DNA from: a virus
IMG/VR virus record: IMGVR_UViG_3300005253_000596
Location: 1 to 21,006 of that record
Length of the DNA: 21,006 nucleotides
Reading direction: 5' to 3' (one strand)
In this document: one piece after another, positions 14,248 to 14,643 of the stretch
Layout of the letters: each line of letters starts with the position of its first letter
Position numbering within the stretch: the stretch's first letter is position 1
The notes under the pieces: generated by a model
The model's database searches: none
Told to the model about the DNA's origin: nothing
The model's input: the letters and a program-made list of their open reading frames with translations, nothing else
Made by a program: the position numbers and the translations under genes

Positions 14248-14267
14248 AAAACCTCCACGATTAGATT

Positions 14268-14566
14268 GGTGATCTCATAGCCAGGATTTAGTTTTATGCC
14301 ATCATCTGTCTCACGAAGAAACTGGTCTCCGCGGCCTTTCGGCTGCCACAACCCGACTATCATAGGCTGAAAGTTTACCTAAGTCTGTTTGTGTTGCACT
14401 GCCCACATGGTATTTGTGGTTAGGCGAATATGGTGGTAATTTTTATGACCTTTACTCTTATTATCGGGACGGTCAAGCGAGAACCACATTCTCCCACATC
14501 TTTCGGCAGTGTCCTGAGCTTCCTCTATTCCTATGGATTCATAAGAACAGCGATGGCTCGATCACC
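14268..14566 (-). ncRNA. rnpB: RNase P RNA (rnpB), compact form
   Basis: RNase P RNA is the ribozyme that removes 5' leaders from tRNA precursors. The core helices are present. P1 is GGTGATC/GATCACC, P2 is GCCATC/GATGGC, and P3 is an 11-bp hairpin. P4 is AGC-U-CAGGA paired with TCCTGGCT, with the bulged U (14517) exactly where the universal P4 bulge lies. Conserved stretches also fit: GAGGAAGCTCAGGAC (region I), CAGTGCAACA (region II, 14401-14392), AGGTAAAC (III), AGATGATGG (IV) and AAATCCTGGCTA (V). At about 299 nt it is shorter than the E. coli RNA. It starts three bases after the tRNA-Ile and ends just before the next gene's leader. Confidence 0.92.
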
Positions 14567-14569
14567 AGT

Positions 14570-14643
14570 CCGCCTTGAAAGATTTGAACTTTCGACCCCG
14601 CACTTATCAGGCGCGTGCTCTAACCAGACTGAGCTAAAGGCGG
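14570..14643 (-). tRNA. tRNA-Ile (GAU)
   Basis: A 74-nt cloverleaf: acceptor CCGCCTT/AAGGCGG, D arm TAGCTCAGTCTGGTTAGAG, anticodon stem CGCGC/GTGCG with loop CTGATAA (GAU, reads AUC and AUU), and T arm GAAAG-TTCAAAT-CTTTC. It abuts a protein stop codon at its 5' end and the RNase P RNA at its 3' end. CCA is not encoded. Confidence 0.94.

Follow-up and report, generated by a model that had tools for sequence, protein, structure and literature searches.

RNase P RNA, the catalytic RNA that trims tRNAs in cells, is among the very few near-universal catalytic RNAs. It is normally encoded by a single-copy cellular gene, and its S-domain canonically grips the tRNA elbow. The C-domain of the E. coli RNA alone can cleave substrate, with reduced efficiency (PMC5839562), and the same paper describes the archaeal type T RNA of Pyrobaculum (Lai et al. 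2010) as combining a degenerate S-domain with an intact C-domain. Non-coding RNAs encoded by phages near tRNA islands include GOLLD and ROOL (PMC12286853). The open-licence PMC literature yielded no description of an RNase P RNA encoded by a phage, a scope that leaves priority uncertain, and RNase P is not mentioned in the huge-phage paper as far as its main text is concerned.

The stretch of DNA analysed here (the window) is a linear IMG/VR virus record of 21 kb, a fragment only. It contains 13 tRNAs and one tmRNA, minus strand throughout, together with phage-type genes: an HNH endonuclease, a polynucleotide kinase, a dCMP deaminase, a DNA polymerase exonuclease subunit, Hsp20, a sulfotransferase and a weak match to a baseplate lysozyme. 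The preliminary description had recognised a phage RNase P RNA inside this tRNA array, a proposal borne out by (i), a match to a covariance model built from phage relatives, (ii), covarying helices in a family that comprises 45 viral loci and, (iii), unannotated relatives in huge and isolated phages. The RNA is a homologue of RNase P RNA and probably works like one. We consider it likely that the minus strand from 14567 to 14267 encodes a compact-class phage RNase P RNA, acting with host RnpA as a ribozyme for phage pre-tRNAs that lack CCA.

Standard models do not recognise this RNA: between 14240 and 14580, Rfam returned no match even at E<=10. A check against the Rfam RNase P models had been set beforehand, and its negative outcome was overturned by R1, a covariance model built from 12 compact phage relatives with the window excluded. 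R1 matched the window from 14310 to 14525 with 64.9 bits (E=5.2e-15; next best, E=0.17). Its alignment treats a pseudoknot module (see below) as an insertion, and the 3' end of the match is misplaced onto P19, since the P18/P19 insert of the window has no counterpart in the model; the true CR-V lies at 14292-14274. The Rfam failure is likely explained by the missing CR-II/CR-III S-domain, the altered P4 sequence and the inserted hairpin module. R1 also detected the RNA of phage A3Wally (E=8e-15) and loci L060, L026 and L040, all with canonical CR-I and CR-V. Against RF00010, L060, L026 and A3Wally gave E=5e-20 or better (72 bits, E=5e-20 for A3Wally), Zooman 53 bits (E=5e-14) and the class member L106 49.7 bits (E=2e-12). 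A3Wally, Zooman and L106 all stay below the RF00010 gathering score of 100, as do some other class loci that match this model; the Rfam cut-off is thus reached neither by L106 nor by the window, for which there is no match at E<=10. The R1 matches and the RF00010 matches of the relatives therefore link the window RNA to RNase P stepwise.

The anatomy of the RNA (Table 1) is that of a full, retained catalytic (C) domain: P1-P5 (P4 with its bulged U), P15 and P18, as well as CR-I, CR-IV and a CR-V that diverges slightly. The helices follow the order P1-P2-P3-P4...P2'-P4'-P1', which is the RNase P pseudoknot formed by P2 and P4, and a CR-IV and a J15/18-type segment (GCAACACAAACAG and CGGGUUGUGGC) come after P5/P15. 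The P1, P2, 11-bp P3 and P4 with a single bulged U that had been read initially are all real and could be mapped to the base. The claim that all five conserved segments are present did not hold: CR-II and CR-III are absent from the window and from the phage class, and the S-domain is a single helix, with a counterpart in L102 (GUGGGAG...CGUCUAACCAC). Two strings considered as CR-II were rejected, AGUGCAACA being P5'/CR-IV and CAGUGCAACACAAACAG the P5 3' strand plus CR-IV. Type T RNAs also have a degenerate S-domain, and the missing segments therefore bar a type A/B label but not membership of RNase P RNA (RF00010 and clan CL00002). We regard the window RNA as a novel phage-borne variant of this RNA, even though it lacks CR-II/CR-III and falls under the Rfam threshold.

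Table 1. Features of the phage RNase P RNA, its neighbouring tRNA and the inserted module (window positions unless a contig is named)
Feature	Position	Strand	Remarks
tRNA-Ile(GAU)	14569..14643	-	no CCA encoded; separated by 1 nt from the RNase P RNA
Whole phage RNase P RNA, P1 5' to P1 3' strand	14267..14567	-	~301 nt; R1 match and mapped helices
P1 5' strand UGGUGAUC	14560..14567	-	partner GAUCACCA 14274-14267; 8 bp; other sequences in relatives
P2 5' strand GCCAUCG	14551..14557	-	partner UGAUGGC 14298-14304; 7 bp; covaries in relatives
P3 hairpin	14525..14550	-	11 bp; CUGUUCUUAUG 14550-14540 / CAUAGGAAUAG 14535-14525; from sequence
CR-I GAGGAAGCUCAGGAC	14511..14525	-	includes P4 5' strand 14512-14520; bulged U = 14517
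P4	14512..14520 / 14279..14286	-	AGC-U-CAGGA 14520-14512 / UCCUG-GCU 14286-14279; 8 bp and a single bulged U
P5	14397..14511	-	CACUGCC 14505-14511 / GGGCAGUG 14397-14404; encloses reduced S-domain; covaries in relatives
Reduced S-domain helix GUGGGAG...CGCCUAACCAC and variable apical hairpin	14412..14499	-	without CR-II or CR-III
Phage-only pseudoknot RNA module on apical hairpin	14417..14493	-	outer stem 14483-14491/14426-14434; core 14447-14481
CR-IV-like GCAACACAAACAG	14385..14397	-	near-invariant in phage class; identical string in A3Wally/L094
P15 (GACU/AGUC, UAGG/CCUA), then CGGGUUGUGGC	14345..14385	-	
P18 (GCCGAAAGGC) and P19 (GUUUCUUCGUGAGAC) hairpins	14308..14343	-	similar layout in L176
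CR-V-like ACUAAAUCCUGGCUAUGAG	14274..14292	-	P4 3' strand 14279-14286; class consensus ACAGAAUCCUGGCUAY
Module copy, L002	1489-1565		
Module copy, L004	1489-1566		
Module copy, L013	3524-3601		
Module copy, L152	10709-10785		

Relatives of this RNA recur in phages. Among 2.9 million viral contigs scanned, the bacterial CR-V string was found at 78 loci, of which 47 have a CR-I 144-404 nt upstream; 21 of these 47 are accompanied by 10-36 tRNAs, usually with a tRNA 11-40 nt away, and some of the other loci resemble bacterial sequence. The window CR-I occurs at 82 loci, 21 of which have a matching P4 strand 142-279 nt downstream and other RNase P landmarks, and the class CR-V (ACAGAAUCCUGGCUAY) added ~24 loci. 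The compact class totals 45 viral loci (two pairs being duplicates), mostly in tRNA arrays, and for most relatives the distance to a tRNA gene is only tens of nt. Profile HMMs that use sequence only, made for the 5' half and the 3' half of the RNA, did not report the window, and the same HMMs revealed the class via loci first taken for chance 15-mer matches. In the isolated Microbacterium phage A3Wally the RNA sits between two tRNA-Pro, and in complete isolated Microbacterium phages it is unannotated, with tRNAs on both flanks. A terminase is encoded in 10 of the 17 carrier records tested. RnpA (PF00825) was found in none of the 25 + 14 carrier records searched (some of them shared), the controls being positive in 10 of 14 genomes, and activity would therefore depend on host RnpA or on the RNA alone. 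Relatives sought via the neighbouring sulfotransferase-like protein, and a BLAST of L208, among the smallest class members, against the phage collection, gave nothing.

Several variants were met in the course of these searches. In L199, L208, L211, L216 and L225, which include 364-380 kb phages, only 109-111 nt separate CR-I from CR-V, and these are possibly among the smallest known RNase P RNAs. A second type of reduced S-domain, CCGUGUGG...CCACUAAGC, occurs in isolated Microbacterium phages and their relatives (L178 2524-2699, L231 1426-1601, L060, L094 and L026). In L099 (3171-3368) and L167 (4271-4474), Cys-containing ORFs of 65-67 aa lie inside the S-domain hairpin, with a Shine-Dalgarno-like AGGAGG and an ATG at their start, and the reading frame runs into the 3' half of the RNA.

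The preliminary description had called the window RNA a compact form of ~300 nt. The class core is indeed compact, but this member is enlarged, its size being largely due to an inserted phage RNA hairpin that is unrelated to RNase P RNA and evolves separately. This module of ~60-77 nt combines a conserved core with a variable stem and sits within the apical hairpin that tops the reduced S-domain. It is an H-type pseudoknot with an outer stem, a stem 1 (GACC/GGUC) and a stem 2 (GYRA/UYRC); its covariation score is 0.60 vs 0.16 when shuffled, and pairing is found in 97% of cells. A model of the module (R2), whose seed includes the window, scores the window at 82.6 bits (E=1e-18); the window has all its features, including the covarying outer stem and the UA variant of a covarying pair. 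In L152, stem 1 of a diverged copy shows a compensatory change to AACC/GGUU. Stand-alone copies exist in two Rhodococcus phages (Francesca and Dorin), in one Sulfitobacter phage and in more than a dozen viral contigs; most of them lie in a tRNA array or close to a tmRNA. The module has no Rfam match, and its exact main pattern is found in none of 84,980 cellular genomes; the single looser cellular match (L180) is ABC-transporter coding sequence. The resemblance of GUAAGAGC in the module to CR-III is a short string match and was not counted as homology. Next to stand-alone copies we observed a permuted or alphaproteobacterial-type tmRNA directly upstream (L007 5808-6242, minus strand) and, in the tRNA array of phage Francesca, a manA RNA motif just upstream (L002 1135-1317).

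The module and an RNase P RNA occur together in at least four further phages (G003, G010, G032 and G037), which may reflect either function or just tRNA-rich genomes. It is tempting, if rather doubtful, to see in the module a new tRNA-recognition domain that would act in trans when alone and would here have been fused in place of the lost S-domain. Such a fusion would amount to a modular, partly split RNase P, and the stand-alone module would help phage tRNA processing.

The insertion raises the question of whether the window copy is decaying. The J2/4-CR-V segment reads ACUAAAUCC where the near-invariant form is ACAGAAUCC (ACAAAAUCC in L116 and L152); the window CR-V itself is ACUAAAUCCUGGCUAU, the RNase P form being ACAGAAnCCGGCUUAY, and its pattern was found in no viral contig. 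The deviant segment could therefore mean that this copy is weakened, which is the main doubt about it, and together with the module inserted in the S-domain hairpin it might mark a phage RNase P RNA that no longer works. We think this unlikely: P1 (8 bp), P2 (7 bp), P4 (8 bp and the bulged U) and P5 are perfectly or almost perfectly formed, and the module sits in a hairpin that is variable and permissive in the working-looking relatives L121, L150 and L163. The ORFs found at the same site in L099 and L167 likewise indicate that it tolerates passengers.

The conserved catalytic-domain anatomy is under compensatory selection. Covariation in P5, the S helix with its hairpin, and P15 scores 0.404 vs 0.130 when shuffled (a value that none of 500 shuffles reached), and both sides of these helices have changed in 57 cells, 18.5 being expected from shuffles. 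P1 and P2 differ in sequence and retain pairing in most of the 21 first relatives. Since the search pattern had fixed P4 in R1, this helix was compared outside the R1 set, between A3Wally and Zooman and in huge phages of 735, 642 and 595 kb (L228, L229 and L230) that carry related RNAs. The variants AAG-U-CCGG/CCGG-CUU, AGC-U-CAGG/CCUG-GCU, AGU-U-CAGG/CCUG-GCU, AGU-U-CGCG/CGCG-GCU, AGU-U-CAAC/GUUG-ACU and AGU-U-CGAC/GUCG-GCU show that P4 changes are compensated across phages and that the bulged U is kept in every variant. This bears on a reading in which the RNA is a decoy that binds host RnpA or pre-tRNAs, starves host RNase P and diverts tRNA maturation from the host. The RNA has lost the S-domain but retains the C-domain elements that in bacteria touch the protein, no RnpA was seen in the carrier records searched and some members are extremely small, all of which would suit a decoy. 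However, a binding decoy would not need P4 and its bulged U to be preserved by compensatory change in many phages, and placement in tRNA arrays suits substrate processing; we thus hold a decoy to be quite unlikely.

That a bacterial rnpB was caught in a mis-assembled or mis-classified contig is very improbable: some matches in viral contigs do look bacterial, such as a group with 273 nt between CR-I and CR-V and no tRNA array, but the window carries its own tRNAs, tmRNA and phage-type genes, isolated and huge phages have related RNAs, and R1 run on 296 Bacteroidota genomes gave one weak match, an ordinary bacterial rnpB (L227, 215.9 bits with RF00010). Chance folding, for which the silence of Rfam at E<=10 might speak, is practically negligible and already refuted by the match to R1 (E=5e-15, window excluded) and the P4 variants, in addition to the covariation and to a descriptor (GAGGA-N3-U-N5, exact P4, P1>=6, P2>=5) that found 244 matches in 788 Mb of shuffled sequence, or ~0.013 expected per window, the window match being longer (P1=8, P2=7).

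The preferred reading, a working phage RNase P RNA, suggests the following scenario. The RNA, which starts 1 nt past the discriminator base of tRNA-Ile, would be co-transcribed with the tRNA array and released by tRNA 3' processing beside this tRNA. It would then partner host RnpA, and the C-domain-based ribozyme would cleave the 5' leaders of phage pre-tRNAs without encoded CCA, so that phage tRNA maturation may continue during a shortage of host RNase P or a shut-off of host transcription. Faster processing of phage tRNAs, resistance to host shut-off and a preference for CCA-less precursors, as put forward in the preliminary description, are putative roles. The earlier remark that almost all tRNAs here lack CCA is consistent with our count, a clear encoded CCA being present in 0 of the 13 window tRNAs. 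The phage tmRNA (10340-10692, minus strand; tag peptide ADALPMAA) also has no clear encoded CCA. Standard annotation overlooked relatives in dozens of further phages, among them the largest known. A recurring unannotated class, found in a 735-kb phage and with relatives in isolated phages, extends this ribozyme to viruses and offers a possible explanation for how tRNA-rich phages could remain independent of host tRNA-processing capacity. Natural RNase P RNAs centred on the C-domain, some with ~110 nt from CR-I to CR-V, are also suited to probing the role of the S-domain.

Like the bacterial type A RNA (RF00010, E. coli M1 RNA), the window RNA has the P1/P2/P3/P4 pseudoknot layout, the P4 bulged U, P15, P18, the GAGGA of CR-I, a CR-IV-like segment, CGGGU..GGC, AGAUGA and a CR-V-like segment; unlike it, it lacks a CR-II/CR-III S-domain and an Rfam score, has a P4 reading AGC-U-CAGGA vs AAG-U-CCGGG, is borne by a phage and adjoins a tRNA. 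It shares a degenerate S-domain and an intact C-domain with archaeal type T, which differs in lacking P18, kept in the window, in its archaeal proteins and in its sequence class. The unannotated RNAs found here in the Microbacterium phages A3Wally and Zooman are likewise compact RNase P RNAs in tRNA arrays and have the same GUGCAACACAAACAG after P5, whereas their P4 (the canonical AAG-U-CCGGG in A3Wally, AGU-U-CCGGG in Zooman) and their S-domain motif are unlike those of the window. Finally, GOLLD and ROOL are also structured phage RNAs that adjoin tRNA genes, but they are unrelated in sequence and structure and have no RNase P core.
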